A DNA stretch of 64,000 nt from Fibrobacterota bacterium (lineage in GTDB: Bacteria; Fibrobacterota; Fibrobacteria; UBA11236), in the NCBI GenBank assembly GCA_019509785.1, contig JAEKLQ010000023.1, positions 62,001-126,000 on the forward strand, read 5' to 3'. Both the position numbers and the translations under genes were made by a program. This document shows, piece by piece, positions 6,871-43,919 of the stretch. Positions within the stretch are counted from its first letter, which is position 1. Each line of letters begins with the position of its first letter. The notes beneath the pieces were generated by a model. The model searched no databases, was not told the DNA's origin, and worked only from the letters and a program-made list of their open reading frames with translations.

Positions 6871-8745
6871 ATGGGGGAAGAGGAATTCATCCAATCGAGC
6901 GCGGATCCAGGGCCCGAGGAACGCGAGCGCTCGGAGCGCCGCGAGCGGACCGACCGCCGCATTTCCGATCGGCGCAACCAGGAAAGGCGTGTGCAGCCGC
7001 GCCGCCAAGGGGAAGGGCCCGAAGGCGCGCCCCGCCGTGCCTGGTTACTGCCTTCTTCCACCGTGCTGGCCGGCCTCATAGGCTTGGCCGCCGGCTTCGG
7101 CCTCTCCCGATTCGCCTCCTTCGGAACGGTGCGGATCAAGGAATCGGCCTTCGGGCTGGACGCCGCCCGGAACATTTCCCGCGGCCGCGACTTCGCCGGC
7201 ATCAAGGAAATGCGCCGTTGGAGCGATCCCGATCGCGCCGGCTACCGTAAGGCGTTGGACGCCCTGAACGCCGGCCAAGCCGGCCAGGCCGCCGCCGGCT
7301 TGGGCGAATTACGCAAGCAACATCCCGAATACCCTTTGCCGCATGCCTTGGCCGCCTATGCCCTGCTGGAAGCGGCGGGGAGGGAAGGCGGCGATCTCGT
7401 CGCCGCGCAAACGGCCTACCGCGCGGCCTTGGCCGCCGACAGCGTCCATCCCTTCGGGCAGTACGCGGCCGGCCGCGTCTGCGAGGCCCTGGGACAACCC
7501 GACTCGGCCGAAGCCCATTACGCGCGCGCCGTGCGCGTCTCGCCTCAGTTCGCCTTTCCCTACGTGGGCCTGGGGCGCGTGCATGCGCAGCGCGGCGAGG
7601 CGCGCACCGCCCGCCTCAACTTCCGCATGGCCATCGGCCTCCTGGAATCCGACCCGGAGGCCTACAAGCAGGGGCCGGCATCGGCCTTGCCCACCGCCGA
7701 ACACGAGCCCATCGATTTGCTGGCGGCCTTGTTCTTCCAAGGCGGAGCCGAAGACAGCGCGCGCATGGCATTGGAATACGGGGAAGAGCGCGGCGTCCAT
7801 AGCGGGCAAATGGCTTTGGTGCAAGGCTGGCTGTGGGAGAGCCGAGGATTCCTGGCCAAGGCCGACTCCCTCTACCGCGCCTGGCAAACCAAGGATCCCG
7901 GCAATCCCGATTTCCGTGAGGCCCTGACCACCCTGGGCTGGAAGCCCGCGAGCCGCGAAGGGAACGCGGCGCCGGACGCCGAGGCCGCCTTCGCCATCTC
8001 CTTGCTCGATCCCCTGGCCCGCCAGCATCCGCAGAACCCGCCGCTGTGGATGGCCCTGGGGCAGGCCTATTACCGGCGCGGCCTTTTCGGGATGGCCACC
8101 GAAGCCTTCGACTCCAGCCTCAAATACGATCCCGTGCTCCCCGGCCTGGCCGAAAAGCGCGATGCCGCCTATCAGGCGCTGGTGCGCCAAGCCGCGCCGA
8201 CCGGGGGAGTTCCCGCCCGCAAATCCGCGGGCCCGACCGCGGACGAACAAGCTCCGGTGGTCATACCGGGCAGCATCGCCTTGCTCGGCACCTACAGCGT
8301 ACCCTGGGGCAGCACGCCCACCGAACTCCGCCAGGCTTACCCCAAGAAGATCTTCCGCACCTTGGCCAACGGCAACCTCCTCGACGTGTTCGATCAGGAA
8401 GGGGTCCGCCACGAATACCTGCTGGCCTTCCGCCAGGGAAAGCTATGGGGCGTGCGCGCCTGGGTCACCGACAGCGGGGGCGTTTCGAGCGACCTCTTCG
8501 GGCGGGTGATCACGACCAAGGCCAAGATCTCCGGCGAAGGCAAGGGCACGGGCGAAGCCAAGTGCAACGGCTTTAAGGCATTCCAAGGCGCCATCTGGGA
8601 GAACGACGACACCTTCGAGTTCATGGCCCAGTTCCAGGGCGAAGACCATCGCGTGCGCCTGGTCCGCATGGGCCGGGACTTCCTGCCGCAAAACCGCCGT
8701 CTCTGCGATCTGGCAGTGTTCCTGCGCGACGATACCTGGAAGTAA
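6871..8745 (+). CDS. TPR-repeat membrane protein with arginine-rich N-terminus
   Basis: A 624-residue protein. Residues 1-57 are strongly charged with alternating acidic and RR pairs (ERRERTDRR, SDRRNQERR). One hydrophobic segment near residues 60-82 (STVLAGLIGLAAGFGL) probably anchors it in the inner membrane with the charged tail in the cytoplasm. Residues about 115-450 form tetratricopeptide repeats with typical A-x-Y-x-A-L spacing, such as FGQYAAGRVCEALGQPDSAE. The last 160 residues are a separate domain of no family I recognise. Its partner is unknown; TPR proteins of this layout usually scaffold envelope complexes. It converges with the superoxide dismutase gene, with 6 bases between. 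Confidence 0.75.
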   Translation: MGEEEFIQSSADPGPEERERSERRERTDRRISDRRNQERRVQPRRQGEGPEGAPRRAWLLPSSTVLAGLIGLAAGFGLSRFASFGTVRIKESAFGLDAARNISRGRDFAGIKEMRRWSDPDRAGYRKALDALNAGQAGQAAAGLGELRKQHPEYPLPHALAAYALLEAAGREGGDLVAAQTAYRAALAADSVHPFGQYAAGRVCEALGQPDSAEAHYARAVRVSPQFAFPYVGLGRVHAQRGEARTARLNFRMAIGLLESDPEAYKQGPASALPTAEHEPIDLLAALFFQGGAEDSARMALEYGEERGVHSGQMALVQGWLWESRGFLAKADSLYRAWQTKDPGNPDFREALTTLGWKPASREGNAAPDAEAAFAISLLDPLARQHPQNPPLWMALGQAYYRRGLFGMATEAFDSSLKYDPVLPGLAEKRDAAYQALVRQAAPTGGVPARKSAGPTADEQAPVVIPGSIALLGTYSVPWGSTPTELRQAYPKKIFRTLANGNLLDVFDQEGVRHEYLLAFRQGKLWGVRAWVTDSGGVSSDLFGRVITTKAKISGEGKGTGEAKCNGFKAFQGAIWENDDTFEFMAQFQGEDHRVRLVRMGRDFLPQNRRLCDLAVFLRDDTWK

Positions 8746-8751
8746 AGGCGG

Positions 8752-9387
8752 CTACGCCGGCTGCTCCACGAACCAGGCCGGCTCCTCCGCGTACAAGCGT
8801 TCCACCTGGTCCCACGCGACCAGGCTCCACCAGGTATCCACCCAATCCGCGCGCTTGTTCTTCCACTTCAGGTAATGCGCATGCTCCCACAAATCAACCA
8901 ATAATAATGGTTTCTCAAGCAGGCTGATGGGGCTGTCCTGGTTGGCGAGATTACGGATATGCAGCTTGCCTTCCTGGTCCTGGGTCAGGAAGGTCCAACC
9001 GCTGCCGAACAGGTCCAGGGCCTGGGCGGTGAATTGCTTTTTGAAATCGGCGAAGGATTTGAACTCCTTCTGGATGGCCTGGGCGATGCGGCCCTTAGGT
9101 TCGCCGCCCTTACCCGGACCCATGGTGATCCAGAATAGGCTGTGGTTGGCATGGCCACCGCCGAAGTTGATCACGGCCCGGCGCTTCGCGGACGGCACCG
9201 CATCCAGATCGGCCAGCACCTCCTCGATGGCTCTGCCTTCGAAGAAGGTTTCGCCGGCCAGGGCGGCGTTCAATTTCTCCACGTAGGCGGCATGATGCTT
9301 GCCATAATGGACTTCCAAAGTGGCCTTGTCGTAGAAGGGCTCCAAGGCGTCGAGGGCATAGGGGAGGGGAGGAAGGGAATAGGCCAT
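8752..9387 (-). CDS. Superoxide dismutase, Fe/Mn family
   Basis: A 211-residue single-domain enzyme converting superoxide to oxygen and peroxide. The four metal ligands are visible: His27 in VHYGKHH, His82 in NHSLFW, and Asp165 with His169 in DLWEHAHYL. The GGGHANHSLFW and GSGWTFL segments are family hallmarks. No signal peptide is present, so it should be cytoplasmic. Whether it uses Fe or Mn cannot be decided from these motifs. The start follows a GGAGA ribosome site. Confidence 0.95.
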   Translation of the reverse strand: MAYSLPPLPYALDALEPFYDKATLEVHYGKHHAAYVEKLNAALAGETFFEGRAIEEVLADLDAVPSAKRRAVINFGGGHANHSLFWITMGPGKGGEPKGRIAQAIQKEFKSFADFKKQFTAQALDLFGSGWTFLTQDQEGKLHIRNLANQDSPISLLEKPLLLVDLWEHAHYLKWKNKRADWVDTWWSLVAWDQVERLYAEEPAWFVEQPA

Positions 9388-9497
9388 TTCGGTCTCCGTG
9401 GATAGGTTGAAGGAGTAGGGGGGAAAATACGGGTTGGCGGGTCGGGGCGCAACGATTTCGATGCCCTGAAACCCGCCCGTATCGCCCGGTTCCGGGC

Positions 9498-9503
9498 TAT
9501 ATT
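9498..9503 (+). promoter_or_regulatory. TATATT -10-like box 6 bases before start
   Basis: TATATT ends 6 bases upstream of the ATG of the YWTD propeller gene, and no Shine-Dalgarno sequence is present. It shows the same arrangement as the boxes before 6871 and 12953. No matching -35 is evident at 16-18 bases. Confidence 0.35.
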
Positions 9504-9509
9504 GGCGGC

Positions 9510-10577
9510 ATGCCCGTCCCTTCCCGCCCCTTGCGCCTTTTCCTGGCCTGCCTCTGCGCCGCCGGGATGGCGTGGGGCGCGGCCCCGCAAGCCCGTATCT
9601 ACTGGCTCGAATTCACCGGCTTGCATTCCGCCAACGCCGACGGCTCCGACGCCAAGACCCTGGTCCCCTTGAACGACGGCCCCGACGGCGTGGCGGTCGA
9701 TGCGGTTGCCGGCAAGATTTATTGGACCAACATGGGTTCGGGCGGCAATGGCAGCGTGCAGCGTTCCAACCTGGACGGATCGAAAGTGGAATACGTGGTG
9801 CCCAAGGCCGGCACCTATTTCGCGAAGCAAATCCAATTGGACCTCATCCATGGCAAAGCCTATTGGAGCGATCGCGACGGGCTGAAAATCCAACGGTGCA
9901 ACCTGGACGGGAGCCAGAACGAAGTCCTCATCTCGGGCGTGGACCATCCCGTGGGCATGGCCCTGGATACGGCCGGCGGCGTGTTCTATTTCAGCGAGAA
10001 GGATGGCGGCACCCTCAAGCGGGCGCCCATGGCCATGCCGCCCGCGGGCCAAACCGCCGCCAAACGCACGGACGTGGAGACCTTGATCTCGGGCTTGGAC
10101 CAGCCCATCGACGTCGGCATCGACCTGGGCAAAAAGCAGATCTATTGGACCGATCGCGACGAGGGCACGGTGCATCGGGCGGGCATCGAAATCCCGGCGG
10201 GGCAGACGGCGGCGACGCGGAAGGACATCGAGACCCTGATGCGCGGCCTCAATACGCCCATCGGCATCGCCTTGGATTTGGCGGGAGGGAAGTTGTTCAC
10301 GACGGAATCGGGGACCGGGGCCGTGTGGCGCGCCAATCTCGACGGGACGGGAAAGGAAGCGGTCATTCCCGCGCGCGCCGGCGCGACCCTGACCGGCATC
10401 TGCTTCGTGCCCGCTGCCGGGACGCAACCCGTCTCCCTGCCGTCCTTACCGATCCGGCGCGGGACGGCCGCGCGCGCCATCGAGGCCCGCGTCGATGCCT
10501 TGGGGCAACGCAGGGCGCCCGTCCAGGACGGCCGAACCTTCCAGGCCTTCTTCCCGATTCCCGGCCTATTCCGCTAG
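9510..10577 (+). CDS. Secreted YWTD/NHL-type six-bladed beta-propeller
   Basis: A 355-residue protein with a Sec signal peptide (residues 1-24, cleavage near AWGA-AP). It contains repeated LDL-receptor class B-like units with IYWTNMG, AYWSDRDG, FYFSEKDG and IYWTDRDEG at about 45-residue spacing, each followed by N-L-D-G-S type turns. These build a six-bladed propeller, usually a protein or glycan binding platform, in the periplasm or outside the cell. No catalytic residues were recognised. The 3' end overlaps that of the convergent membrane protein gene by 12 bases. Confidence 0.75.
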   Translation: MPVPSRPLRLFLACLCAAGMAWGAAPQARIYWLEFTGLHSANADGSDAKTLVPLNDGPDGVAVDAVAGKIYWTNMGSGGNGSVQRSNLDGSKVEYVVPKAGTYFAKQIQLDLIHGKAYWSDRDGLKIQRCNLDGSQNEVLISGVDHPVGMALDTAGGVFYFSEKDGGTLKRAPMAMPPAGQTAAKRTDVETLISGLDQPIDVGIDLGKKQIYWTDRDEGTVHRAGIEIPAGQTAATRKDIETLMRGLNTPIGIALDLAGGKLFTTESGTGAVWRANLDGTGKEAVIPARAGATLTGICFVPAAGTQPVSLPSLPIRRGTAARAIEARVDALGQRRAPVQDGRTFQAFFPIPGLFR

Positions 10578-12952: not shown

Positions 12953-14290
12953 ATGCGGGAATTGTCCGGATGGGGAGGCCGCCCCCGCTTTTCCGTCGAA
13001 GAGATGGAGCCCGACGGCCGGGCCGGGCTATCGGATCTGATCGGATCGCCTTACCTGCCCCGCGGCCGCGGGCGCAGCTACGGGGATGCGGGTTTGCCCG
13101 CTTCCGGCCACCGCGCCGTCAATTCCCGCCGCTTCCAGCGTATTCTCTCCTTCGATGCCGCCGCGGGCGTGGTGGATGCCGAGGCGGGCGTAACCTTCAA
13201 GACCCTTTTGGCCCTCGTTTTGCCGCGGGGATTTTTCCTCCCCGTAACCCCGGGTACCATGGACGTGACCTTAGGCGGGGCCTTGGCCAGCAACGTCCAC
13301 GGCAAGAATCACCATCGCGCGGGATCGATCGAGCGATTCGTGATCGAAGCGGAGGTGGCCACCCCTATCGGGACCTTCACCTGTTCCCCTTCCGAACGCC
13401 CCGATCTTTTCCGCGCCACCGTGGGGGGCTACGGCCTCACCGGCTTCATCGTGCGGGCCAAGCTGCGGCTGGTACGGGTGGCGACCGCCCAAGTCGAGGC
13501 CCTACGCCTGCGCGCGCCCGATTTGGCAGCGATGTTCGCGCTCTTCGCGAGGCACGACCACGCGTACGAGTACTCCGTAGCCTGGCTGGACACGCTGGCG
13601 CGAGGGCGCAGCCTGGGGCGTGGCGTGCTGATGCTCGGCAACCACGCCGCCCCGAGCGGCAGACAGCCGGGCCCCGATTTGGCGCTGCGCCCGCGGCGCG
13701 CCCTGGCCGTGCCCTTCGCTCTGCCGGGGTTCGCCTTCAACCGCCCGGCCCTGACCGCTTTCAACGGGCTCTTCTACCGCTTCTCCCGCGCGGGCCGTTC
13801 CCGGGAGCCTTTGGAGGCCTTCTTCTATCCTCTCGATCGCATCCGCGACTGGAACCGGCTCTACGGACGGCGGGGCTTTTTCCAATACCAATGCGCCATA
13901 CCCGATCCCAACGGCGAAGCGGGGATGGCGGAAGTCCTGGATCTATTGGCCCGCGAGCGCCTGGGGGCCTTCCTCTCGGTGCTCAAGCGCTGCGGCGATG
14001 ATGAGGCGCTGCTTCCCTTCTGCAAGCGCGGCTATACCTTGGCCCTGGACGTGCCCTACCGCGGGCCCGCCACCTTGGCGGCCCTGGATCGCCTCGACGA
14101 ATTGGTGATCCGCCATGGCGGCCGGGTGTACCTGACCAAGGACGCGCGCCTTTCGCCGGCGGCCTTCCGCGCCATGTACCCGGAGGCTCCCGCCTTCATG
14201 GCGACCGTGCGCCATTACAATCCCGAAGCGGGCGGCGGCCGCCGCTGCGATTCCCGCCTGGCGCAAAGGCTAGGGCTATGGCAGGTCTGA
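12953..14290 (+). CDS. DprE1-like FAD-dependent polyprenyl-P-pentose 2-oxidase
   Basis: A 445-residue FAD-linked oxidase that can be followed end to end against mycobacterial DprE1: LSGWGG at the start, RGRGRSYGD (residues 37-45) and PGTMDVTLGGALASNVHGKNHH (100-121) in the FAD domain, then FYPLDRIRDWNRLYG, and VYLTKDARL near the C-terminus. DprE1 oxidises decaprenyl-P-ribose at C2 on the way to decaprenyl-P-arabinose. The region equivalent to Cys387 of M. tuberculosis reads YTLALDVP, with Ala at that place. It overlaps the UbiA-like gene by 13 bases, so the two form an operon. The ATG at 12953 is preferred over upstream GTG/ATG codons because homology begins there. Confidence 0.85.
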   Translation: MRELSGWGGRPRFSVEEMEPDGRAGLSDLIGSPYLPRGRGRSYGDAGLPASGHRAVNSRRFQRILSFDAAAGVVDAEAGVTFKTLLALVLPRGFFLPVTPGTMDVTLGGALASNVHGKNHHRAGSIERFVIEAEVATPIGTFTCSPSERPDLFRATVGGYGLTGFIVRAKLRLVRVATAQVEALRLRAPDLAAMFALFARHDHAYEYSVAWLDTLARGRSLGRGVLMLGNHAAPSGRQPGPDLALRPRRALAVPFALPGFAFNRPALTAFNGLFYRFSRAGRSREPLEAFFYPLDRIRDWNRLYGRRGFFQYQCAIPDPNGEAGMAEVLDLLARERLGAFLSVLKRCGDDEALLPFCKRGYTLALDVPYRGPATLAALDRLDELVIRHGGRVYLTKDARLSPAAFRAMYPEAPAFMATVRHYNPEAGGGRRCDSRLAQRLGLWQV

Positions 14291-15234
14291 GCCCTTCCGG
14301 ACGCGGCCCCGAGGCGTCCTCCTCCGACGCGTCGGCCTTTTCGCCCGCGGGTTTACCGTCCCCGCTTTGGCGGGCCCTGGTCGAACTGGCGCGGCCATCG
14401 CATTGGTTCAAGAACATATTCGTATTGGCCGGCGCCTTCTTCGCCAAGGATTGGCGCGATCCCGAGGTGTTGCGGGCCGCGGGCGCCGCCTTCGTCGCCT
14501 TCTGCCTGGCCGCCAGCGCCGTATACGCCTTCAATGACGCCCTCGACGCGGACGAAGATCGCCTGCATCCGCGCAAGCGCCTTCGGCCGGTGGCATCGGG
14601 AAGGGTGTCCGCCGCGACGGCCTTCGCCCTTGCGGCGGCGCTGGGAGCGGCGGCGCTGGGAGCGGGAATGATCGCCGGCCCGCGATTGCAGGTTTGCCTC
14701 TTCGCATACGGCTTGGTCAATGCCTTGTATTCCCGGATCCTCAAACGCATGGTGCTGCTGGACGTATTCTGCATCGCCGCCGGCTTCCTGCTGCGCTTGT
14801 TGGCAGGAACCTGGGGCATCGGGGTAGAGCCATCGGAATGGTTCCTGCTCTGCACCCTGAACCTGAGCCTGTTCTTGGGGTTCTCCAAGCGTTACGCGGA
14901 ACGCGTCGATCCCGTGCGGCCGTTGGAGGCGAAGCGGGAAGTCTTGCGCAGCTATTCCCCCGAGTTCCTGCGCACCTTGCTCGCCATCACCTTGGCCTCC
15001 ACGGTGATCACCTACGGCCTCTACACCACCAGCCCACGCACCGCGCTGGTCCATCCCCATGCGCGACTCATCTATACCTTGCCCATCGCCTTGTTCGGAT
15101 TATTCCGCTACCTGTATCTGGTAATGGAAAAGGGTTACGGCGAAAATACCGTAGCCGACGTGCGCAAGGACATTCCGCTTCTGCTCGCATGCGCGGTATA
15201 CGTGGTCGTAAGCCTGCTTTTATTGGCCGATTGA
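14278..15234 (+). CDS. UbiA-family polyprenyl-phosphate phosphoribosyltransferase-like
   Basis: A 318-residue membrane prenyltransferase-fold protein with about eight helices. The first aspartate motif is NDALDADEDRLHPRKRLRP, whose HPxKRxRP ending marks the decaprenyl-phosphate 5-phosphoribosyltransferase (DPPR synthase) subgroup, not the ubiquinone enzymes. The second region contains YSRILKRMVLLDVF. The N-terminal RPSHWFKN is also typical. It would move phosphoribose from PRPP to polyprenyl phosphate, giving the precursor of the DprE1 substrate made next door. The phosphatase and the DprE2 reductase of that pathway are not in the window. Confidence 0.85.
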   Translation: MAGLSPSGRGPEASSSDASAFSPAGLPSPLWRALVELARPSHWFKNIFVLAGAFFAKDWRDPEVLRAAGAAFVAFCLAASAVYAFNDALDADEDRLHPRKRLRPVASGRVSAATAFALAAALGAAALGAGMIAGPRLQVCLFAYGLVNALYSRILKRMVLLDVFCIAAGFLLRLLAGTWGIGVEPSEWFLLCTLNLSLFLGFSKRYAERVDPVRPLEAKREVLRSYSPEFLRTLLAITLASTVITYGLYTTSPRTALVHPHARLIYTLPIALFGLFRYLYLVMEKGYGENTVADVRKDIPLLLACAVYVVVSLLLLAD

Positions 15235-15375: not shown

Positions 15376-16614
15376 ATGATTCGCATTTACGACCCGAGCC
15401 TGGAACGGGCTTGCCGGGATTTCCTGGACCGATCCCCGAAGGCCAATTATTGCCATGACCCCGCCTGGCTCGACGTAATACGCGAAGCCTACGGAAAGGA
15501 AGCGTTCGCCTTCGTGCGGACCGACCCCGTAACCGGGAAGATACGGGGCTACGCCCCCGCCTGCCACCTGGCCTCGGCGGCCTTCGGGCGCCACCTGGTG
15601 GCGCTGCCTTATCTGGATTACGGCGGCATCCTGGCCGAAGATCTCGACAGCGAGGACGTGCTGCGCGAGAAGCTTTTGTCCGAAGCCGTACGCGGCAAGG
15701 CGGGCCTCGAGATCCGCAGCCGCTTTCCCCTCGCCGGCCTGCCGGTTCCCGAGGACGGGAAGGTGTGCATGATCCTGCCCTTGCGCGAAGAGCCGCCCGA
15801 AGAGTCCCCGGAGGCCGATTGGACCCCCGTCGCGGCCGATGAAATGGAAGATGGCCTGGAGAGCGAGGAGCCCTGGATAGCGGAAGGGGCGGTCTGGTCG
15901 GAATGGGATGGGGCCGTACCCGTCGATGCGGCCACCTATCCTATCAAGACAGGGACGCGTAAGGGCCAGGGCGGCGCGAAGCCGGCCCCCGACCACGGCG
16001 CCAACGCTTACTGGAAGAGCCTCGACGCCAAGGTGCGCAACCAGGTGCGTAAGGCGGAGAAATCGGGCGTGACCGTAAGCTGGGGCCGCGAGGAACATCT
16101 GGACGAATTCTACGAGGTTTTCTGCGTGAACATGCGCGACCTGGGCTCGCCCACCCACGCCAAGGGATTCTTCGCCGCCGTCCTCAAGCATTTCCCGGGC
16201 GCTTCCATCGGCATCGCCCATCGCGAAGGGAAGTGCATCGGCGGGCTTTTCCGCATCCTGTGGAAGGACGAGCTGGTCATCCCCTGGGCTTCGACCCTTA
16301 AGGAGGAACGGGTGCATTGCCCCAATAACGCGCTCTACTGGGAGGCCATCCAGTTCGCCTTCGAACGGGATTGCGCGCGCGTCGATTTCGGCCGCAGCAC
16401 CAAGGACGAAGGCACCTACCGGTTCAAGAAGCAGTGGTTGGCCCGGGAAAGTAATTTGTATCGTTACCAATTCGATGACAAAGGCCACTTCCTGGAACGG
16501 GCCTGGCACGTTTCGCAGGGCAAGCTAGGATGGACCCGAAACGTATGGGCGAAGCTCCCCTTGAAGCTGGCAAACGCCCTGGGCCCCATGGTGCGGGGAA
16601 GCATCTCGGCCTGA
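15376..16614 (+). CDS. FemAB/GNAT-like peptidyl or acyl transferase, XrtA FemAB relative
   Basis: A 412-residue protein related to the XrtA-associated FemAB family. Its N-terminal half begins NYCHDPAWLDVIREAYG and contains LPYLDYGGILAEDL. The C-terminal half has LDAKVRNQVRKAEKSGV, then NMRDLGSPTHAKGFF, and ends with VDFGRSTKDEGTYRFKKQW. Between them, residues about 135-215 are an acidic, proline-rich insert absent from the paralogue at 24.3-25.3 kb. Fem-type enzymes transfer aminoacyl or acyl groups to cell-surface precursors. The true donor is unknown. GAGGAG precedes the ATG. Confidence 0.75.
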   Translation: MIRIYDPSLERACRDFLDRSPKANYCHDPAWLDVIREAYGKEAFAFVRTDPVTGKIRGYAPACHLASAAFGRHLVALPYLDYGGILAEDLDSEDVLREKLLSEAVRGKAGLEIRSRFPLAGLPVPEDGKVCMILPLREEPPEESPEADWTPVAADEMEDGLESEEPWIAEGAVWSEWDGAVPVDAATYPIKTGTRKGQGGAKPAPDHGANAYWKSLDAKVRNQVRKAEKSGVTVSWGREEHLDEFYEVFCVNMRDLGSPTHAKGFFAAVLKHFPGASIGIAHREGKCIGGLFRILWKDELVIPWASTLKEERVHCPNNALYWEAIQFAFERDCARVDFGRSTKDEGTYRFKKQWLARESNLYRYQFDDKGHFLERAWHVSQGKLGWTRNVWAKLPLKLANALGPMVRGSISA

Positions 16615-17921
16615 GAGCGCCTTCCGCCGCTCCGGCGGGGGCGGCCCGCCCCCGCAAAAAGACCGCCCGCCTGCTGTGGATCATGTTCGCGGTGTTCGTC
16701 GTGTACGGCACCACTTTCCCTTTCCGCTTCGACATCGGATGGCATGGATTCCTCCGCGAGGCCCAGCGCATCAATTGGCGCCCGCTGGGGGGTACCGCGG
16801 ACAACATCATCCTTTCCGATATCGTCCAGAACATCATGTTGTTCATGCCCTTCGGTTTCCTGGGCTATTTCTCGCTCATCTACAAGAGCTCCCTGGCCCG
16901 CAAGGCCGCCGTGGTGCTGATGGGCGCGTCCCTCTCCGCCAGCGTGGAGTTCCTGCAGATCTTCTCGCCGGTGCGCTATCCCGCCCTGTCCGACGTCATC
17001 TTCAATACCGTGGGCACCGCCGTCGGCCTTTTGGTCGCCATGTCCTTCAAGCGGTCGGTGCTCGGCTTCAAGACCCATCCCCTGGCGCGCCGCTTCCTGG
17101 ACGCGCCCTCCGCCTTCCCCGCTATCATCTTCCTGGGCCTGGTGATCGCCGGTTGCTGGGAGCCTTTCGATTTCAGCCTGGACGTGGGGCTCGTCATCTC
17201 CCATCTCAAGCCCCTCATCCGCCATCCCTTCACGTTCGCCAATCCCGATGACGATCTGATGAGCTTCATCCGGTTCCTGTTGGCTTCGCTCTTCATGTGC
17301 CGCCTGTTCGCGGAAGCGGGTCTCCGGCTGCCGGCGTTGTGGGGCGCGATCCTTTTGGGCGCCCTGGGAGGGGCGCTCGAGCTTTCCCAAGCCTTCATCC
17401 AATCCCGCTTGCCCGAGGTCCAGGACGCCCTGGTTGCCATGCTGGGATCGGCGGCGGGCGGCATCGCCTACTTCTTCCCCGGTTTCCATCTCCGCCCGCG
17501 CACCTGGACCCTGGCCGGCGCGGCCATGATCTTCCTGTCGTCCGCGGCGCGCGCGTGGTATCCCTATCATTTCTCGTCCCACTACTCCGGGTTCAACTGG
17601 GTGCTATTCATGCCCTACTACGAGCACACCACTTTCCAGGCCCTGGGGGATTTCATCGAAAGCGCGATGCTGTTCTTCCCCTTGGGATTCCTGCTGGCCT
17701 ATTTCCACCCCGGGGTCCGCATGGAGGCCAAGGGCGTTTTGCTATCCGGCGCGCTCGCCTTCGTCGTGGAAGCGTTGCAGGGATTCGTGCCCGGCCGCTA
17801 CGCCGATGCCACCGACGTGCTGGGAGCCGTGCTGGGCGGCTTCGCCGGCGCTTTGGCCCTTTCGCGCGGCTGGCCGGCCTTCAGGGAATACATGGCCCGG
17901 GACGACGACGAGCAGGTGTAA
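16530..17921 (+). CDS. VanZ-like membrane protein with repeated VanZ units
   Basis: A 463-residue membrane protein with at least ten hydrophobic segments. The VanZ hallmark (a Glu-x2-Gln in a helix, then an Arg, an Asp and a Gly-rich helix) appears three times: VEFLQIFSPVRYPALSDVIF, LELSQAFIQSRLPEVQDALV and VEALQGFVPGRYADATDVLG. VanZ proteins are linked to teicoplanin resistance and envelope polysaccharide loci; their chemistry is unknown. The annotated ATG overlaps the FemAB-like gene by 85 bases. The first 45 residues are low-complexity, so a later start is possible, but the overlap suggests coupling. Confidence 0.7.
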   Translation: MDPKRMGEAPLEAGKRPGPHGAGKHLGLRAPSAAPAGAARPRKKTARLLWIMFAVFVVYGTTFPFRFDIGWHGFLREAQRINWRPLGGTADNIILSDIVQNIMLFMPFGFLGYFSLIYKSSLARKAAVVLMGASLSASVEFLQIFSPVRYPALSDVIFNTVGTAVGLLVAMSFKRSVLGFKTHPLARRFLDAPSAFPAIIFLGLVIAGCWEPFDFSLDVGLVISHLKPLIRHPFTFANPDDDLMSFIRFLLASLFMCRLFAEAGLRLPALWGAILLGALGGALELSQAFIQSRLPEVQDALVAMLGSAAGGIAYFFPGFHLRPRTWTLAGAAMIFLSSAARAWYPYHFSSHYSGFNWVLFMPYYEHTTFQALGDFIESAMLFFPLGFLLAYFHPGVRMEAKGVLLSGALAFVVEALQGFVPGRYADATDVLGAVLGGFAGALALSRGWPAFREYMARDDDEQV

Positions 17922-21469: not shown

Positions 21470-21516
21470 CAGATTCAAATTAGGTTTTTAACAGATTCTA
21501 AAGTAAGGTGGTCCGA

Positions 21517-22056
21517 ATGCGACCGATGAACTCACTCCCGGCGGCAGCCGGTCTCCTTCTCGTCCTCGCTACGGGATCATTCTCGGCGCCCATCCACTCG
21601 GAAACCTCCGTAGGCGGGCACGGGGGGTATTGGACCGTGCCGGCTACTTATGATCCCTGGGCCCCCGGGTGGATCGGCCACCGCGGGCATCGTTCGCCTG
21701 GATTGGCTCCGCGGGACAGGGGGCTTGCGAAAGACCATGGCGGCTATGGGGCGGCGAACCTCCCCTTCGGGCTGGGAAGAATGGATGAAGGCTACCCGAT
21801 CCCGTCGCGGCTTTGCGGAGGCGCGGTCGGTACGGGCTTGTCGCAGTATCCGTTAGAGGGCCCTGATTCGGAGACGCCGGACTTGGACGTGACACAGCCA
21901 GGCGATGACGGATCGGATGCGCGGATTGCCGCCACCGCGGACTTGGACCGGAACGCGAACCCTATCCCGGCAGTACCCGAGCCGGGATCTTTGGCGATGC
22001 TGGGGGCGGGAGCGTTAGGCCTTTTGGCTGCGCGCGGACTGCTCAAGGATCAATAA
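21517..22056 (+). CDS. PEP-CTERM sorting-domain protein
   Basis: A 179-residue secreted protein with a signal peptide (AAAGLLLVLATGSFSA) and a Gly/His/Pro-rich middle of no recognised fold. The end is a PEP-CTERM tail: VPEP, a hydrophobic helix (SLAMLGAGALGLLA) and a short basic segment ARGLLKDQ. Such tails are cut and possibly linked to a carrier by exosortases during export of the matching exopolysaccharide. It is the only PEP-CTERM protein I see in the window. ATG 21517 has AAGGTGG 6 bases upstream; a GTG at 21508 is in frame. Confidence 0.85.
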   Translation: MRPMNSLPAAAGLLLVLATGSFSAPIHSETSVGGHGGYWTVPATYDPWAPGWIGHRGHRSPGLAPRDRGLAKDHGGYGAANLPFGLGRMDEGYPIPSRLCGGAVGTGLSQYPLEGPDSETPDLDVTQPGDDGSDARIAATADLDRNANPIPAVPEPGSLAMLGAGALGLLAARGLLKDQ

Positions 22057-25421: not shown

Positions 25422-27341
25422 ATGTGCGGAATCGCCGGATTCGTCTATCCCGACAGGCGCCCTCCCGATCCCGAGGTCTTGAGGGCGATGACCCGCGCCC
25501 TCATCCATCGCGGCCCGGACGAGGAAGGCTACCATGCCGAGCCCGGGATTGCCCTGGGCCAGCGGCGCTTGTCCATTATCGACCTGGCCGGCGGCCGTCA
25601 ACCCATCTACAACGAGGATGGTACCATTGCCGTGGTCTTCAACGGGGAAATCTTCGATTACGTCGAGATCCGGGCCGAGCTGGAGGCGCTGGGCCACCGC
25701 TTCAAGACCAAGACGGATACCGAGGTCATCGTCCATGGCTACGAGGAATGGGGCCTGGATTTCCCCAACCATCTCAACGGCCAATTCGCCATCGCCGTCT
25801 GGGACGAGCCTAAGCGCCGCCTGATCCTGGCGCGCGACCGGGTGGGCATCCGGCCCCTCTTCCATGCCACCGCTCCGGACGGAGCCCTCCTGTTCGCCTC
25901 CGAAATGAAGGCGTTGTTCCGCTATCCCGGCCTTAATGCGGAAATGGATCCCCGCGGCCTGGGGCAAATCTTCACCTTCTGGGCCAACATCCCGCCCCGC
26001 ACCGTATTCAAAGGAGTCTCGGAACTACCTCCCGGCCACGTGCTGGTCGCGGAAGCGGGATCGATGCGCATCCACGCCTATTGGAAGCACCGTTTCCCCG
26101 ATCGCGGCGGCTATGAGGATCACCCGGAATCGTGGTGGATCGAGCGCCTGCGCGCCTTGCTGCACGATGCGACCGCCTTGCAACTCCGCGCGGACGTGCC
26201 GGTCGGCTCCTACCTGAGCGGGGGCCTGGATTCCTCCATCATCGCCTCCTTGGTGAAGCGCCACCATAATCCCGGCCTCACCACCTTTTCCGTCGGCTTC
26301 GCCGATCCGGCCTACGACGAGCGGGCCTACCAGAAGCAGATGGCGGAGTTCCTCGGCACGGATCACCATATCATGGAGGTCGATTACGCCGATATCGGCG
26401 AAGCCTTTTCCGACGTGGTCCGCTTCGCGGAAAAACCGATGACGCGTACGGCCCCCGCCCCGTTGATGTCGCTTTCGGGTCTGGTACGCAAGCACGGCAT
26501 GAAGGTGGTCCTGACCGGGGAAGGGGCGGACGAGATCTTCGGCGGCTACAATATCTTCCGGGAGGATAAGATCCGCCGTTTCTGGGCGCGCAGCCCGGAA
26601 GCGGTCTGGCGCTCCCTGCCGCTTTCGGGCCTATACGGGTACGTGGCGAAGAACGCCGCGGCCGGCGCCTTCTGGCGCCAGTTCTTTAAGCGCGGCCTCA
26701 CCGACGTCGATCATCCTTATTACTCGCATCTGATCCGCTGGCGCAATACCGGTTGGATCAAGGGCCTGTTCGCTCCCGCCTTCCGCGAAAGCCTGGGGAC
26801 GGAGGAGGAACTGATCGCCGATCTGGACGCCTACGTCGATCCCGAGATGCGCCGCTGGCATCCGCTCTGCCGCGCGCAATACCTGGAGATGGCGGTATTC
26901 ATGTCGGGCTATCTGCTCTGCTCGCAAGGCGACCGCATGCTGATGGCGCATTCGGTGGAAGGGCGCTTCCCTTTCCTCGACCATCGCCTGATCGAATTCG
27001 CGGCCACCATCCCGCCCAAGTACAAGGTGAAGACCTTGACCGAGAAGTACATCCTCAAGCAGGCCTACGCCGACGTGCTGCCCCCCGCCATCGTGAATCG
27101 GCCCAAGCATCCCTACCGGGCCCCGATCAGCCGTTGCTTTTCCGATCCGGGCAAGAACCTGGCCGCCTCGCTATTGACCCCGGAGGCGCTCCAGGCCACG
27201 GGCTATTTCGACCCGCAAGCGGCGACGCGGCTTCTGGACAAGGCCCGTCAGAGCGAAAGCGGCCATCTCGGCGAACGCGAAGAGATGGGGGTGGTGGCCA
27301 TGGCCTCCACCCAATTGCTGCACCATCATTTTTTGTCCTAA
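25422..27341 (+). CDS. asnB: Asparagine synthase (glutamine-hydrolysing), copy 1
   Basis: A 639-residue two-domain amidotransferase. The N-terminal glutaminase domain has Cys2 (MCGIAGFV) and HRGPDEEGYH. The synthetase domain has the ATP-pyrophosphatase loop SGGLDSS (residues 265-271) and LTGEGADEIFGGYNIF. It uses ATP and glutamine nitrogen to amidate an acid. In XrtA loci such enzymes probably modify sugars or the acyl substituent rather than free aspartate. The start is backed by GGAGGT about 10 bases upstream. It is divergent from the FemAB gene, sharing a 120-bp intergenic region. Confidence 0.9.
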   Translation: MCGIAGFVYPDRRPPDPEVLRAMTRALIHRGPDEEGYHAEPGIALGQRRLSIIDLAGGRQPIYNEDGTIAVVFNGEIFDYVEIRAELEALGHRFKTKTDTEVIVHGYEEWGLDFPNHLNGQFAIAVWDEPKRRLILARDRVGIRPLFHATAPDGALLFASEMKALFRYPGLNAEMDPRGLGQIFTFWANIPPRTVFKGVSELPPGHVLVAEAGSMRIHAYWKHRFPDRGGYEDHPESWWIERLRALLHDATALQLRADVPVGSYLSGGLDSSIIASLVKRHHNPGLTTFSVGFADPAYDERAYQKQMAEFLGTDHHIMEVDYADIGEAFSDVVRFAEKPMTRTAPAPLMSLSGLVRKHGMKVVLTGEGADEIFGGYNIFREDKIRRFWARSPEAVWRSLPLSGLYGYVAKNAAAGAFWRQFFKRGLTDVDHPYYSHLIRWRNTGWIKGLFAPAFRESLGTEEELIADLDAYVDPEMRRWHPLCRAQYLEMAVFMSGYLLCSQGDRMLMAHSVEGRFPFLDHRLIEFAATIPPKYKVKTLTEKYILKQAYADVLPPAIVNRPKHPYRAPISRCFSDPGKNLAASLLTPEALQATGYFDPQAATRLLDKARQSESGHLGEREEMGVVAMASTQLLHHHFLS

Positions 27342-27399: not shown

Positions 27400-28326
27400 C
27401 TAAGCCGATCTGCGCGCCATGAGCGCCCGCACGGCCCCCGCCTCGTCGCAGGCGGTTTCCACCAGATCGTAGTCGGAGGAGCGGCGCAATTGCTTGGCCA
27501 TCGGTTCGCCTTGGCCCAATCCGGCTTCGAAACAAAGCCAGCCGCCGGGCTTCAGGAAGCGCGGGGCCTGCTTGATCAGCTTCATCAGGATGGATACCCC
27601 GAAAGGGCCGCCGTCGAAAGCCATGGAGGGCTCGCGGGCGATCGCGTTTGGAAGATCGGGCACCTTGGCGGAAGAGATGTACGGAGGGTTGCAGGCGACC
27701 AGATCGGCGCTGCCCTGGAAGCGTTCCTCTTCGAAAGGGGAGAGCAAATCGCCGACCCGGAACTCCACCCGGAGGCCCGTCCCGTCCCCCCCGCGGCCCG
27801 CACCCGTAACCTCCAGGTTACGCCGGGCGAGGCCGACGGCCTCGGGGGAAAGATCGGAGGCGAAGATGCGGGCGCGCGGTTCGCCCGCCGCGATGGCCAG
27901 CGCCACGTTGCCGCTGCCGGTGCAGGGTTCGAGCACCAGCAATTCCCGGCCGGCCATGGCCTTCAGTTTGCCTAAGGCGGCGCGCGCCAGGATTTCCGTT
28001 TCCTTGCGGGCGATGAGGGCCTCGGGCCCGGCCAAAAGCTCCAGGCCCAGGAAGTCCTGCCGGCCGGTAAGGTGGGCCAGGGGCTCGCCCGCGCGCTTGC
28101 GCTCGAACAGGGCCGAGAGGCGAGCCTGGGCCGCGTCGTCGAGAGGGGGCAAGGGCAGGGTGGCCGCGCGCACCGCCGAGGCGGGGCTTCCCGCGGCGGC
28201 CAGCCACAAGGCCTTCAAAACCGTTTCCGCTGTTTCCTCGGGCATGTCAGGGGCCGGGGACCAAAAGGATTGCAGCTCGGAAAGGCGGGCCTCGGCTGCC
28301 GCATCGAAGCCGGAAAGGTCGGTCAT
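27400..28326 (-). CDS. prmC: PrmC/HemK-family protein N5-glutamine methyltransferase
   Basis: A 308-residue SAM-dependent methyltransferase. Near the middle it has LTGRQDFLGLELLAG, the conserved link between the helical N-domain and the catalytic domain, then LEPCTGSGNVALAIA for SAM binding and the active-site NPPY motif (ACNPPYISS). PrmC methylates the GGQ glutamine of release factors. Its first codons overlap the stop of the AMP ligase by four bases (ATGA), so it is translated from the ligase transcript. A role within the polysaccharide locus is possible. Release-factor methylation is the family default, but prfA, its usual neighbour, is absent. Confidence 0.8.
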   Translation of the reverse strand: MTDLSGFDAAAEARLSELQSFWSPAPDMPEETAETVLKALWLAAAGSPASAVRAATLPLPPLDDAAQARLSALFERKRAGEPLAHLTGRQDFLGLELLAGPEALIARKETEILARAALGKLKAMAGRELLVLEPCTGSGNVALAIAAGEPRARIFASDLSPEAVGLARRNLEVTGAGRGGDGTGLRVEFRVGDLLSPFEEERFQGSADLVACNPPYISSAKVPDLPNAIAREPSMAFDGGPFGVSILMKLIKQAPRFLKPGGWLCFEAGLGQGEPMAKQLRRSSDYDLVETACDEAGAVRALMARRSA

Positions 28327-29879
28327 AGCGGCTCCCGGGACAATTCCTTCTTGCGGATTTTCCCCGTGGCGGTTTTAGGCAACTCCGGCAGGAAGATCAC
28401 TTCTTTGGGTACCATGAAATTCTCCAGGCGCGCCAGGCAATGGGCCTTGATCTCCTTGTCGGAAAGCGCGGCGCCTTCTTCCAAGGCCAGGTAGGCGCGG
28501 ATGGCTTCGCCCATGAGCGCGTCGCGGACGCCCACCACGGCGGCCTCGCGCACCCCGGGAATCCCGTGTAGGCAATTCTCCACCTCGATGGGGCTCACCT
28601 TCTCGCCGCGGCTCTTGATGATATCGTCGCTGCGGCCCACGAAGTAGAGGAAGCCTTCCGCGTCCATGCGGAAGAAATCCTGCGTGCAAAGCACGCGTTC
28701 GCCCGGCAGCTTCCCCGGTTTCAGCATCTCCGCGGATAGATCGGGACGGTTGAGGTATCCGAGCATCACGTGGGGGCCGCGCACGTACAGGACGCCGGTT
28801 TCGCCGGGCGGCACGGGCTTGCCGTCCTCGGAGAGCAGGAAGACTTCCGTGCCCGGGATGGCTTTCCCGACCGATTCGGGCTTGACGTCGATCAACTCGG
28901 GCTCCAGATAACACACCCGCTTGCATTCGGTAAGGCCGTACATGCGGAAGATGAGGGCATTGGGGAAGATCTCGCGCAACCTCGGCACGATGTCGGCCGG
29001 CAGGGCCGCCGCCGTGTTGGTGACGCGCTCCACCGAAGGGAAGCAAAGGGGCTTGCGCGCGTGCATTCCCAAAAGGGTCATGTAGACGGTGGGCACCCCG
29101 GGGAAGACGGTGACCCCTTCGGACTGCACCCGGTTCAGGATCTGGGCGGGATAGGTGAAGGAACGCTCCAGCACGAGCGTGGCGCCCAGGCGCATGGCCA
29201 TCAGCAATTGGTAGAGGCCGTAGTCGAAGGCGAGAGGCAGGACGTTCAGGATGCGATCGGTGTCGCGCAAGCGCAAATATTCTATTAGACTCCCGGCGGT
29301 GAATGTCATGGCCTGGTGGGTCATCATCACGCCCTTGGGATTGCCGGTACTGCCCGAGGTATAGATGAGGGCGGCCAGATCCAGGGGGATGATCTGGCTC
29401 GGCAACTTCCCGGCAGGCGTAGCGACAGCCGAATCGAAAGCGATCAAGGGGCGCGGGCATGCGGCCGGAAGGGTTCCCGAAGCGATGACCGATTGGATCG
29501 AAGGCGCGTCCGCCAGGGCTTCGACGAAAGCGGTTGCGATGTGCCCGTCGCTGAAGAGGAACCGGGCGCCGCAATCGTTGAGGATGAAGCGCAGCTTATC
29601 GGGTTTGGTTTGCGGGTTCACCACCACGAAGGTTCCGCCCGCCATCAGGATCGCGAAAATCGATACGACGCAGGGCCAGGTATTATCCATGTAGATGGCC
29701 ACGCGATCCCCGCGTTGTAAACCTTCCCGACACAAGAAGGAGGCCAGGTTACAAGCTTGCTCCCTCAAATTGTCGTAGCGGTATGGCTTTCCTTCCACAA
29801 CCAAAGCGGTTTTCGAAGGAAAGCGCGTACTTGAGTCAAGCAGGCTGTCGTGCAATAATCTCTGGTATCGGTGATCCAT
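28323..29879 (-). CDS. AMP-dependent acyl ligase, copy 1
   Basis: A 518-residue ANL-superfamily enzyme. The AMP-binding loop is LIYTSGSTGNPKGVMMTHQA. Later motifs are MYGLTECKR, the hinge FVGRSDDIIKSRGEKVSP and the catalytic lysine in KTATGKIRKKEL at the C-terminus. It adenylates a carboxylic acid and passes it to a thiol. The acyl carrier protein gene at 29977 is divergent with its start only 98 bases away, so the carrier is the likely acceptor. The acid is unknown. It is upstream of prmC in a two-gene operon. Confidence 0.87.
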   Translation of the reverse strand: MDHRYQRLLHDSLLDSSTRFPSKTALVVEGKPYRYDNLREQACNLASFLCREGLQRGDRVAIYMDNTWPCVVSIFAILMAGGTFVVVNPQTKPDKLRFILNDCGARFLFSDGHIATAFVEALADAPSIQSVIASGTLPAACPRPLIAFDSAVATPAGKLPSQIIPLDLAALIYTSGSTGNPKGVMMTHQAMTFTAGSLIEYLRLRDTDRILNVLPLAFDYGLYQLLMAMRLGATLVLERSFTYPAQILNRVQSEGVTVFPGVPTVYMTLLGMHARKPLCFPSVERVTNTAAALPADIVPRLREIFPNALIFRMYGLTECKRVCYLEPELIDVKPESVGKAIPGTEVFLLSEDGKPVPPGETGVLYVRGPHVMLGYLNRPDLSAEMLKPGKLPGERVLCTQDFFRMDAEGFLYFVGRSDDIIKSRGEKVSPIEVENCLHGIPGVREAAVVGVRDALMGEAIRAYLALEEGAALSDKEIKAHCLARLENFMVPKEVIFLPELPKTATGKIRKKELSREPL

Positions 29880-40056: not shown

Positions 40057-41931
40057 ATGTGCGGCATCACCGGATACGTGCTCCGTTCGGGGTCGGCGGA
40101 AAGCAAGCGGCAGGTGCTCGAGGCCATGTGCGGGCTGATTTCCTATCGCGGCCCGGACGGCTCCGGCGTGCTGATCCAGGGCCAGGCCGCGCTGGGGCAT
40201 CGCCGGCTTAGCATCATCGATTTGGCCGGCGGCGCGCAGCCCATGGCCACCCCGGACGGATCGCTCACCGTGGTATTCAACGGCGAGATCTACAACTTCC
40301 CCGAACTCAAGCGGGAATTGATCGATAAAGGCCATTCCTTCCGCACCAACTCCGATACGGAAGTGCTCTTGCACGGCTACGCCGCCTACGGAACCAAGCT
40401 GCTGGCGAAGCTGAACGGCATGTTCGCCTTCGCGTTGTGGGACGACAAGCGCAAGGTGCTCTTCGCCGCGCGCGATCGCATGGGCAAGAAGCCGTTCTAC
40501 TACCATGCCACCGGCGAACGGATCATTTTCGCCTCGGAGATGAAATCGCTACTGGCCGAACCGGAAGTGCCGCGCCGCCTGGACCCGGAGGCCATCGACG
40601 ATTTCTTCTCGTTCGGCTACATACCGGCGCCGCGCACCGCTTTCCTGGATGTGCAGAAACTGCGTCCGGGCCATTTCCTGCTTTGGGAAGACGGGAAAAC
40701 CCGCGTCGAGAAGTACTGGGACGTGCGTTATGCGCCCGACCCCGATTGCAAAACCGAAAACGATTACGTCGACAAGCTGGAAACCCTGCTGCAGGCGGCC
40801 GTGAAGCGCCGCCTCATCAGCGACGTCCCGCTCGGCGCGTTCCTGAGCGGCGGCCTCGATTCCAGCGTCATCGTGGGCCTGATGGCGCGCGTCTCCGGCG
40901 AGCCCGTGCGCACCTTCACGATCGGCTTCGAGGAGAAGGAATTCAACGAGCTGGAGGACGCGCGCGTCGTGTCCGATGCCTTCGGCACCCTGCATCGCGA
41001 GCATATCGTGCGGCCCGACGCCTTGTCCATCCTGCCGTCCCTGGTATGGCATTTCGACGAGCCCTTCGCGGACTCTTCCGCCGTGCCCACCTATTACGTA
41101 TGCCAGGCGGCCCGCCGCGAGGTGACGGTGATCCTTTCCGGCGACGGCGGCGACGAGTTGTTCGCCGGCTACAACGCCTATTTGGGGCGGGATCGTTACG
41201 ATAAGTACAAAGCCATCCCGGCCCCCCTGCGCCGCATGGTCTGCGGGACGGCCGGGCGCCTATTGCCCTGGAACGCGCCGGGCCGCAACCTGATGCGCCG
41301 CTTGGGGCACCTGGAGGCTTTCGAACGCGGCGACATCCCCGAGTTATTCCCGCCCATCAAGGAAGCCCTGTACGCGCGCGAATGGGGCCGCAAGCTGACC
41401 GAGCGCGATCCCGCCTCCGTCTTCGCTTATTGGGAGGGCGCCCCGGCGTCCGGCCTCAGCCGCCTGCAATACCTGGATACCAAGGTCTATCTGCCCGAGG
41501 ACATCCTCACCAAGGTCGATCGCATGTCCATGGCCAACTCCCTGGAAACGCGTGCGCCCCTGCTGGACTATACCGTGGTCGAATTCGCCGCTTCCATCCC
41601 GCCCGCATTGCAGATCAAGGACGGCAAGGGGAAGTACATCCTCCGCAAATTGGCCGGGCGCTTTTTGACGCCCCGGGTATTGGCCAAGAAGAAGCAGGGA
41701 TTCGCGATCCCCCGCGAGAAGTGGTTCCAGGGCGCCTTGCGCGATTTCGCGCGCGATATTTTGACCAGCCCCCGCTTCCGGCAGCGGGGATTCTTCCGCC
41801 AGGACATGGTCGAAATGATGCTGCGCGAGCATGATCGGGGATCCCGCGACTACAGCATCTGGATCTGGAGCCTTATCAATTTCGAACTGTGGAACCAGGC
41901 CTTCCTGGACGGCGATACCCGGAAAATCTGA
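40057..41931 (+). CDS. XrtA-associated amidotransferase 1 (asparagine synthase type), copy 2
   Basis: A 624-residue asparagine-synthase family enzyme that fits exosortase A system amidotransferase 1 (TIGR03108). It has Cys2 (MCGITGYV), YRGPDGSGV, HRRLSIIDLAGG and NGEIYNF in the glutaminase domain, and SGGLDSS (residues 262-268), EPFADSSAVPTYYVCQ and LSGDGGDELFAGYNAY in the synthetase domain. It is first in a tight seven-gene run ending with the decarboxylase at 48845. In that context it probably amidates or condenses a carrier-bound acid or a uronic sugar. Confidence 0.9.
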   Translation: MCGITGYVLRSGSAESKRQVLEAMCGLISYRGPDGSGVLIQGQAALGHRRLSIIDLAGGAQPMATPDGSLTVVFNGEIYNFPELKRELIDKGHSFRTNSDTEVLLHGYAAYGTKLLAKLNGMFAFALWDDKRKVLFAARDRMGKKPFYYHATGERIIFASEMKSLLAEPEVPRRLDPEAIDDFFSFGYIPAPRTAFLDVQKLRPGHFLLWEDGKTRVEKYWDVRYAPDPDCKTENDYVDKLETLLQAAVKRRLISDVPLGAFLSGGLDSSVIVGLMARVSGEPVRTFTIGFEEKEFNELEDARVVSDAFGTLHREHIVRPDALSILPSLVWHFDEPFADSSAVPTYYVCQAARREVTVILSGDGGDELFAGYNAYLGRDRYDKYKAIPAPLRRMVCGTAGRLLPWNAPGRNLMRRLGHLEAFERGDIPELFPPIKEALYAREWGRKLTERDPASVFAYWEGAPASGLSRLQYLDTKVYLPEDILTKVDRMSMANSLETRAPLLDYTVVEFAASIPPALQIKDGKGKYILRKLAGRFLTPRVLAKKKQGFAIPREKWFQGALRDFARDILTSPRFRQRGFFRQDMVEMMLREHDRGSRDYSIWIWSLINFELWNQAFLDGDTRKI

Positions 41932-41948
41932 GCGGAGAGCGAGCGCGT

Positions 41949-43919
41949 ATGGGAGCAATTTGCGTGATAGTCAATCGCCGGGAAAGCGAGCCGGCGCGCA
42001 CCGATGTCGTGGACGCCATGCTCCGGGAAGCCGTGGCCGCCCGCAGCGGGAATCCGGCCCAGCCGCTTCCCGCGCCCGCCAGCCGGGCCTTTTCCAACGT
42101 GGCGGCCGGCGCCATCGACGCCCTCAAGGGGGATTCCGGGCAATGCCTGTACGAGGACGAAGCCGTGCTTGTGGCTTGCGACGCGGAGATTTACAACGGC
42201 AAGGAATTGGCCGGTAGCGCCGGCGTCCCCGAGAACGCCGGCGAAGCGGCCTTGATCGCGGCTTTGTACCGGCGGCATGGGGAATCGTGGTTCGAAAAGG
42301 TGGCCGGCATTTACGGGGTCTTCATATACGACAAGGGCAAGCGCAAGGGATTGGCCTTTTCCGATCGCCTGGGCGTGCGGCCCTTGATCGTCCACGAGGA
42401 CGACGAGCGCATCGTGGTGGCCACGTATTTGGCCTCTCTGGCCGGATTGCCGGGCTTCCAGGCTACGCTCGATCACCAAGCCGTGTGCAGCTACCTGTTC
42501 ATGGAGATGATCCCCACGCCTTTCACCATCTACCGTTCGGCGCGCAAGCTGGAAGGCGGCCATGTCTTGCGCATTTCCGGCGGGCGGACGGAAACGGCGC
42601 GCGTGTGGAACATGAAATACCCCGAGCCGAAGCTGGCGGACGAAGGCGAAATGATCGCCGGCATGCGGCGCCTGATGCGGCAATCGGTGCAGCGCCAGGC
42701 CGCCCTCGGGGTGAAGACCCCGGAAGAACTCGGATCCTTTCTCAGCGGCGGAACCGATTCCAGCCTCATCGCCGGCTTGCTCAGCGAATTGAACCCGGGC
42801 CGGGCGAAAACCTTCACCATCGGTTTCGAAGAGCCCGGCTACGATGAAATGGAATTTTCCCGCATCGCCAGCAACCGCTTCAAGACCAAGGCCGACGAAT
42901 ACTACGTGACCCGGGACGATATTGTCGACGCCTTGCCCCTGATCGTGCGCGCTTTCGACGAGCCTTTCGCCAACTCCTCCGTCATCCCCACCTATTTCTG
43001 CGCCCGGCGCGCGCGCGAATCCGGCGTGCGCGTGATCATGGGAGGGGACGGGGGCGACGAGATTTTCGGAGGCAACTCCCGCTACCGCGATTATTACCAG
43101 GATTTCCACCGCTTCAATCCCGCCGTGGAAATGGCGATGTCGCTGGCGGTGGGGGCGACCCCCAAGTGGGCCCAGGTAGGCCCCATGCGCAAGGTGGCCA
43201 ATTACCTGGCGCGTAAGCATGCGCCTTTGCACGAGCGCATCCACGCGTATGATTTGTCCTTCTATTTCGGCAAACGCGAGAACATCTTCGCCGCCGGTTT
43301 CCTGGCCGGCCAGGGCCAGTTCCTGAACGCCCAGGAAATCGCGCGCCGCATCCTGGAAGGCGCCGAGACCACGGATGAATTGGATCGTTACCTGTATCAC
43401 GATTTGAAGAATACCTTGATGGACAACGATCTCCGCAAGGTGAACACCATGACCGAGCTGGCGGGAGTGCAGGTGCGCTATCCCTTCCTCGATACCGAAC
43501 TGGTGGAGTTCACCGGGCTTATCCCCTCCAACCTCAAGGTGAAGGATGGCGCGCTCCGCTACCTGTACAAGGAAGCCTTCAAGGATATCCTGCCGCTGGA
43601 GATCATCAACAAGAAGAAGCACGGCTTCGGGCTGCCGGTGGTGCAGTGGATGTTCCGCAAGGGACGATTCAACGACATGCTGCGCGACGCGCTTTTCGAT
43701 GGGCGCCTCAAGGCGCGCGGCATCTTCCACGACGCCTTCGTGGACGGCCTGTACAAGCGGGCCCAGGCGGACAAGACGGCCTATTTCGGATACTTCCTTT
43801 ATTACATTTTTTTCCTGGAACTCTGGCTGCGGGAACATGTCGACGGGAGCGCCAGCCGCGCATCGTCGCGATTCTCCGCCGCCGCCGGGGTTCCGGGCTC
43901 ATCGGGAAGGGACCTATGA
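41949..43919 (+). CDS. Asparagine synthase homologue without N-terminal Cys, copy 3
   Basis: A 656-residue protein with both asparagine-synthase domains, but starting MGAICVIVNRRE. The catalytic Cys2 of the glutaminase domain is Gly, and the first Cys is residue 5. The glutaminase half is also diverged: the usual HRGPD and RLSIID motifs are not visible, though EIYNGKELAG and SDRLGVRPL remain. The synthetase domain is intact, with SGGTDSS (265-271), EPFANSSVIPTYFCA and MGGDGGDEIFGGN. It likely cannot use glutamine and may instead join another amine, as beta-lactam synthetase does. Its stop overlaps the acyl carrier protein start by four bases. Confidence 0.85.
   Translation: MGAICVIVNRRESEPARTDVVDAMLREAVAARSGNPAQPLPAPASRAFSNVAAGAIDALKGDSGQCLYEDEAVLVACDAEIYNGKELAGSAGVPENAGEAALIAALYRRHGESWFEKVAGIYGVFIYDKGKRKGLAFSDRLGVRPLIVHEDDERIVVATYLASLAGLPGFQATLDHQAVCSYLFMEMIPTPFTIYRSARKLEGGHVLRISGGRTETARVWNMKYPEPKLADEGEMIAGMRRLMRQSVQRQAALGVKTPEELGSFLSGGTDSSLIAGLLSELNPGRAKTFTIGFEEPGYDEMEFSRIASNRFKTKADEYYVTRDDIVDALPLIVRAFDEPFANSSVIPTYFCARRARESGVRVIMGGDGGDEIFGGNSRYRDYYQDFHRFNPAVEMAMSLAVGATPKWAQVGPMRKVANYLARKHAPLHERIHAYDLSFYFGKRENIFAAGFLAGQGQFLNAQEIARRILEGAETTDELDRYLYHDLKNTLMDNDLRKVNTMTELAGVQVRYPFLDTELVEFTGLIPSNLKVKDGALRYLYKEAFKDILPLEIINKKKHGFGLPVVQWMFRKGRFNDMLRDALFDGRLKARGIFHDAFVDGLYKRAQADKTAYFGYFLYYIFFLELWLREHVDGSASRASSRFSAAAGVPGSSGRDL

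Follow-up and report, generated by a model that had tools for sequence, protein, structure and literature searches.

The window analysed here, a stretch of 64,000 nucleotides from a Fibrobacterota metagenome-assembled genome (5.4 Mb in 106 contigs, 96% complete), contains an overlapping gene pair, dprE1 and ubiA, that probably belongs to a fibrobacterial form of the known polyprenyl-phosphate pentofuranose pathway and descends from an ancestral arabinofuranose operon that has lost dprE2 alone. The first gene, dprE1 (12953–14290, + strand), encodes a homologue of the flavin adenine dinucleotide (FAD)-dependent polyprenylphosphoryl-ribose 2'-oxidase (P0001, 445 aa) and the second, ubiA (14278–15234, + strand), a homologue of polyprenyl-phosphate phosphoribosyltransferase (PPPRS/DPPR synthase; P0002, 318 aa). 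Both open reading frames were confirmed, and they overlap by 13 nt at 14278–14290 (ATGGCAGGTCTGA).

P0001 matches the NCBIfam model for DprE1 (NF053785; 5e-98, 329 bits against a curated cut-off of 500) and the mycobacterial DprE1 structures 4aut (1e-60) and 4fdn (5e-58) in the PDB, with the next structural family at 6e-9, and it contains the HGKNHH FAD-site motif as well as the conserved active-site lysines of the DprE1 family, in FLSVLK and TKDAR. P0002 scores above the cut-off for decaprenyl-phosphate phosphoribosyltransferase (NF008977; 258.6 bits, cut-off 234), and its matches among solved structures are confined to 8j8j (M. tuberculosis DPPR synthase, 2e-33) and 8j8k, both sequences of DPPR synthase. 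The aspartate-rich NDxxDxxxDR motif of UbiA-type DPPR synthases and PPPRS is retained in P0002 as NDALDADED within a conserved region that starts at about residue 31. Judged by these matches, P0001 is a DprE1-type FAD oxidase and P0002 a UbiA-family phosphoribosyltransferase, a chance match being excluded. The assignment agrees with the preliminary description of the pair, and the enzyme families likewise support its suggestion that the product is likely to be a polyprenyl-phosphate pentose. A PF04030 (ALO) search for DprE1-like proteins gave no matches, and a search with P0001 returned one distant FAD oxidase stretch on contig C72 (29% over 121 aa).

Both remaining genes look intact at the level of their encoded residues, with no clear sign of decay. 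In a leave-one-out invariant-site test, the window DprE1 retains 75/75 positions that are invariant in the other homologues (11 fibrobacterial and one mycobacterial), and the window UbiA retains 30/30 (10 and one, respectively). Within the family, seven of 170 conserved DprE1 sites are changed in the window, compared with 0–6 in the others, and relative-rate counts for dprE1 are similar in size to those of several neighbouring genes. Decay of dprE1 or ubiA was rejected on the grounds that neither the invariant-site test nor the relative-rate counts indicate a specific relaxation. DprE1 is a drug target in tuberculosis, and the position of the cysteine attacked by benzothiazinones (Cys387) had been read as Ala in the window; alignment confirms this (YTLALDVP versus WNVCVDFP in M. 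smegmatis DprE1), but Ala is family-wide, being common to every fibrobacterial DprE1 homologue aligned.

The ancestry of the pair is evident from its relatives. Among named genomes, Fibrobacteres/Fibrobacteria metagenome-assembled genomes are closest to the source genome. Among 168 Fibrobacterota genomes searched, dprE1 was found in 12: six belong to this genus (the source genome included), four to a sister genus and two to a different family. A search with the relatives' reductase locates a DprE2-like gene immediately next to dprE1 in every one of these but the source genome (11 genomes). Eight relatives have the order dprE1-dprE2-ubiA, where dprE2 is a short-chain reductase (SDR) of about 250 aa; in G163 dprE1 and dprE2 are adjacent with ubiA about 9 kb away on the opposite strand, and G041 and G042 carry a HAD-UbiA fusion followed by dprE1 and dprE2. 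The proven Citrobacter enzyme ORF15 likewise consists of a HAD phosphatase fused to the synthase (PMC11127046). Four of the reductases encoded between dprE1 and ubiA were sampled; they score 147–172 bits against the DprE2 model NF053786, below its cut-off of 250, and the general SDR model PRK07102 ranks ahead of it. With steps one, three and four (UbiA, DprE1 and DprE2) represented, these relatives probably make arabinose. A further 19 Fibrobacterota genomes have a UbiA of the P0002 type but, at the thresholds used, no dprE1, and these are possibly ribose-only systems. In G041 and G042, a protein of about 790 aa is encoded immediately after dprE2, overlapping its end (L051:10729–13083 and L050:3051–5429); it has an N-terminal 5-formyltetrahydrofolate cyclo-ligase domain followed by 8–10 predicted membrane helices that may constitute a GT-C-like transferase.

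DprE2 was found neither in the window nor in the rest of the source genome, where a six-frame search with the DprE2 of L041 returned generic SDRs only. Relocation of dprE2 within the genome was rejected, as the six-frame matches are generic and six SDRs typed by NCBIfam belong to other families. The DprE1–DprE2 combination that constitutes a decaprenylphosphoryl-ribose to decaprenylphosphoryl-arabinose epimerase is thus absent from the source genome, its missing partner being present in 11 relatives. The preliminary description had recorded the local lack of DprE2, which proves to be genome-wide and to concern a gene that relatives carry between dprE1 and ubiA. It had further named a genome without DprE2, together with glycans without pentose, as refuting the idea; the absence of DprE2 does hold for orthologues in the source genome, but the ancestry of the pathway is not in doubt, since 11 relatives carry dprE2.

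The deletion junction coincides with the gene overlap (14278–14290, + strand), as revealed by comparison with L041–L049, and the missing dprE2 amounts to about 750 bp. In L041, the 3' end of dprE1 reads CTATGGCGGACCTGA and the ATG within it opens dprE2; in the window, the matching end reads CTATGGCAGGTCTGA and the ATG at 14278 opens ubiA. The motif CTATGGCxGxxCTGA is common to the window junction and the L041 dprE1/dprE2 overlap. In seven of eight relatives ubiA begins at the xTGA that ends dprE2, and the window ubiA is in the same frame, read from the cTGA that ends dprE1. The simplest account of this anatomy would be an excision of dprE2 alone, bounded by the stop codons of dprE1 and dprE2, that superimposed the two and left ubiA with the start codon and upstream sequence of dprE2.

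In the proposed pathway, UbiA would make polyprenyl-phosphoryl-ribose-5-phosphate, an unlinked phosphatase would take off the 5-phosphate, and DprE1 would oxidize the lipid-linked ribose at C2; in the relatives, DprE2, encoded next to dprE1, would then reduce the ketone to give arabinose. The donor would presumably be flipped out by a flippase and transferred by a GT-C enzyme, with exopolysaccharide as the putative acceptor. As the preliminary description had indicated, the scanned window genes include no recognised phosphatase, whether as a separate gene of the operon or as a fusion to UbiA, the window UbiA being without a HAD domain. The proposed search further afield yielded three unlinked PAP2 proteins (PF01569) elsewhere in the genome, but these cannot be assigned to the pathway. 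No linked flippase or GT-C gene was found beside the window pair in searches that did not include the GT136 and MATE models, and the three-component arrangement of pentofuranose systems (PPPRS with linked flippase and GT-C) was not observed. On contig C72 of the source genome, a GtrA-family gene adjoins a PMT_2 GT-C gene (8533–9674; L073, L074), a candidate unlinked flippase and transferase pair that is not assignable to the pathway. The GT-C-like gene at 10566 (P0003), which had been suggested as a recipient of the product, was rejected as the acceptor enzyme: it lacks a clear homologue in the nine relatives of the family, which all have the pathway (one weak match, E 8e-4, in G162), and is thus unlikely to be the pathway glycosyltransferase.

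Several observations weigh against an arabinofuranose operon lacking only dprE2. It has been reported that M. tuberculosis DprE1 and DprE2 each fail to epimerise alone (PMC4213368), and no substitute reductase was recognised in the source genome, where the best SDR has 31% identity to the L041 DprE2 (1.4e-9). Phosphatase, flippase and GT-C genes of the pathway are not linked to the pair, both the DprE1 and the relatives' DprE2 scores lie under their curated cut-offs, and the deletion is seen in one metagenome assembly of 96% completeness. With the fourth step absent and the single enzymes not epimerising, either a substitute reductase or ribose as the end product has to be considered. It is most likely that DprE1 and UbiA both still act and that a non-orthologous reductase completes the epimerisation to arabinose, for which C. 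glutamicum NCgl1429, which may replace DprE2 (PMC4213368), offers a precedent; failing that, ribose would be the usable lipid-linked pentose.

It is conceivable, albeit rather unlikely, that the pair forms a true DprE1/UbiA system without dprE2, with DprE1 partnered by a non-orthologous reductase or with the keto-pentose itself being used; this would constitute an undescribed lipid-linked pentose route. A doubtful alternative is a recent loss accompanied by a switch to ribose, with polyprenyl-phosphate-ribose as the sole usable donor and dprE1 either left over or serving another role. Such a switch is consistent with the lack of a DprE2 orthologue and with the 19 genomes that have UbiA without dprE1, which make ribose-type use plausible in the phylum, and gain or loss of an epimerase gene has been proposed as a route to a different pentose in O antigens (PMC11127046); however, dprE1 keeps all invariant residues, and its acceleration is no greater than that of several neighbouring genes. 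An assembly artefact, whereby about 750 bp were dropped and the organism retains an ordinary dprE1-dprE2-ubiA operon, appears improbable but is not negligible. In its favour, the source is one metagenome-assembled genome split into 106 contigs, dprE2 is present in each of the 11 other genomes with dprE1, and an undecayed dprE1 would be odd if its partner were lost; against it, the excision is exact and in frame with neither neighbour damaged. Moreover, identity between the two boundary regions in relatives does not exceed 9 nt, less than a usual k-mer collapse would need, which makes collapse by the assembler less likely. A generic FAD oxidase beside an unrelated quinone- or haem-type UbiA prenyltransferase, with no pentose pathway, is very improbable despite the breadth of both superfamilies and a DprE1 score under its curated cut-off, since the best structural matches are to DprE1 and DPPR synthase specifically, well ahead of the next families, and UbiA exceeds its family cut-off. 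In addition, relatives possess a DprE2-like gene, and the HAD phosphatase-UbiA fusion known from the proven ribosyl synthase (PMC11127046) occurs in two genomes.

Profile matches identify the window as an XrtA/PEP-CTERM exopolysaccharide locus: TIGR03087 (22993–24516) and TIGR03098 (45989–47593) score above their cut-offs, and TIGR03099, TIGR03088, TIGR03108 and TIGR03019 give strong matches that are nevertheless under theirs. Downstream of ubiA lie genes for a FemAB/GNAT-type protein related to an XrtA/PEP-CTERM-associated family (15376–16614, + strand; TIGR03019, 2e-62, below cut-off) and a VanZ-like membrane protein (16530–17921, + strand; PF04892, 1e-33); synteny establishes both as neighbours conserved within the genus but does not tie them to the pathway. 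Elsewhere in the locus, three asparagine-synthase-like amidotransferases (25422–27341, 40057–41931 and 41889–43919) and two XrtA-type acyl-CoA ligases (28323–29879 and 45989–47593) look like a duplicated decoration module, and a short secreted-type protein (21508–22056) has a PEP-CTERM-like C-terminal tail, VPEPGSLAMLGAGALGLLAARGLLKDQ.

The preliminary description had placed polyprenyl-phosphate pentose outside the actinobacteria; the enzymes are indeed there, but such DprE1/DPPR-synthase pathways have already been published, for Pseudomonas pilin arabinofuranose (Araf), Citrobacter O antigens and DprE1/E2 homologues for Araf glycans (PMC11127046). What is new here is the fibrobacterial exopolysaccharide-locus version, which extends the lipid-linked arabinose/ribose donor pathway to such loci in Fibrobacterota, and one precise dprE2 loss resting on a single assembly. 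If real, this excision would provide a natural test of whether DprE1 needs DprE2 and of an arabinose-to-ribose glycan switch by epimerase loss, as proposed for O antigens.

The mycobacterial decaprenyl-phosphate-arabinose pathway comprises the UbiA/DPPR synthase Rv3806c, the phosphatase Rv3807c, DprE1 (Rv3790) and DprE2 (Rv3791). The fibrobacterial system shares its first enzyme and oxidase, its reductase in relatives, and conserved catalytic-region residues, but differs in the loss of dprE2 from the source genome, Ala in place of Cys387, the lack of a linked phosphatase or arabinosyltransferase, and its setting in a Gram-negative-type exopolysaccharide locus. The three-component pentofuranose systems of Citrobacter youngae (ORF15 PPPRS, ORF14 MATE flippase and ORF12 GT136; PMC11127046) likewise begin with a UbiA-type PPPRS, and the HAD-UbiA fusion of G041 and G042 resembles ORF15; in contrast, the window pair has no adjoining flippase or GT-C, a DprE1-type oxidase instead of an ORF13-type epimerase, and a UbiA lacking the HAD domain. 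The Pseudomonas aeruginosa pilin D-Araf pathway, as cited in PMC11127046, has pilin as its acceptor and a linked phosphatase, unlike the fibrobacterial pair, but resembles it in having a Gram-negative PPPRS-type enzyme without a HAD domain that is proposed to provide an Araf donor.
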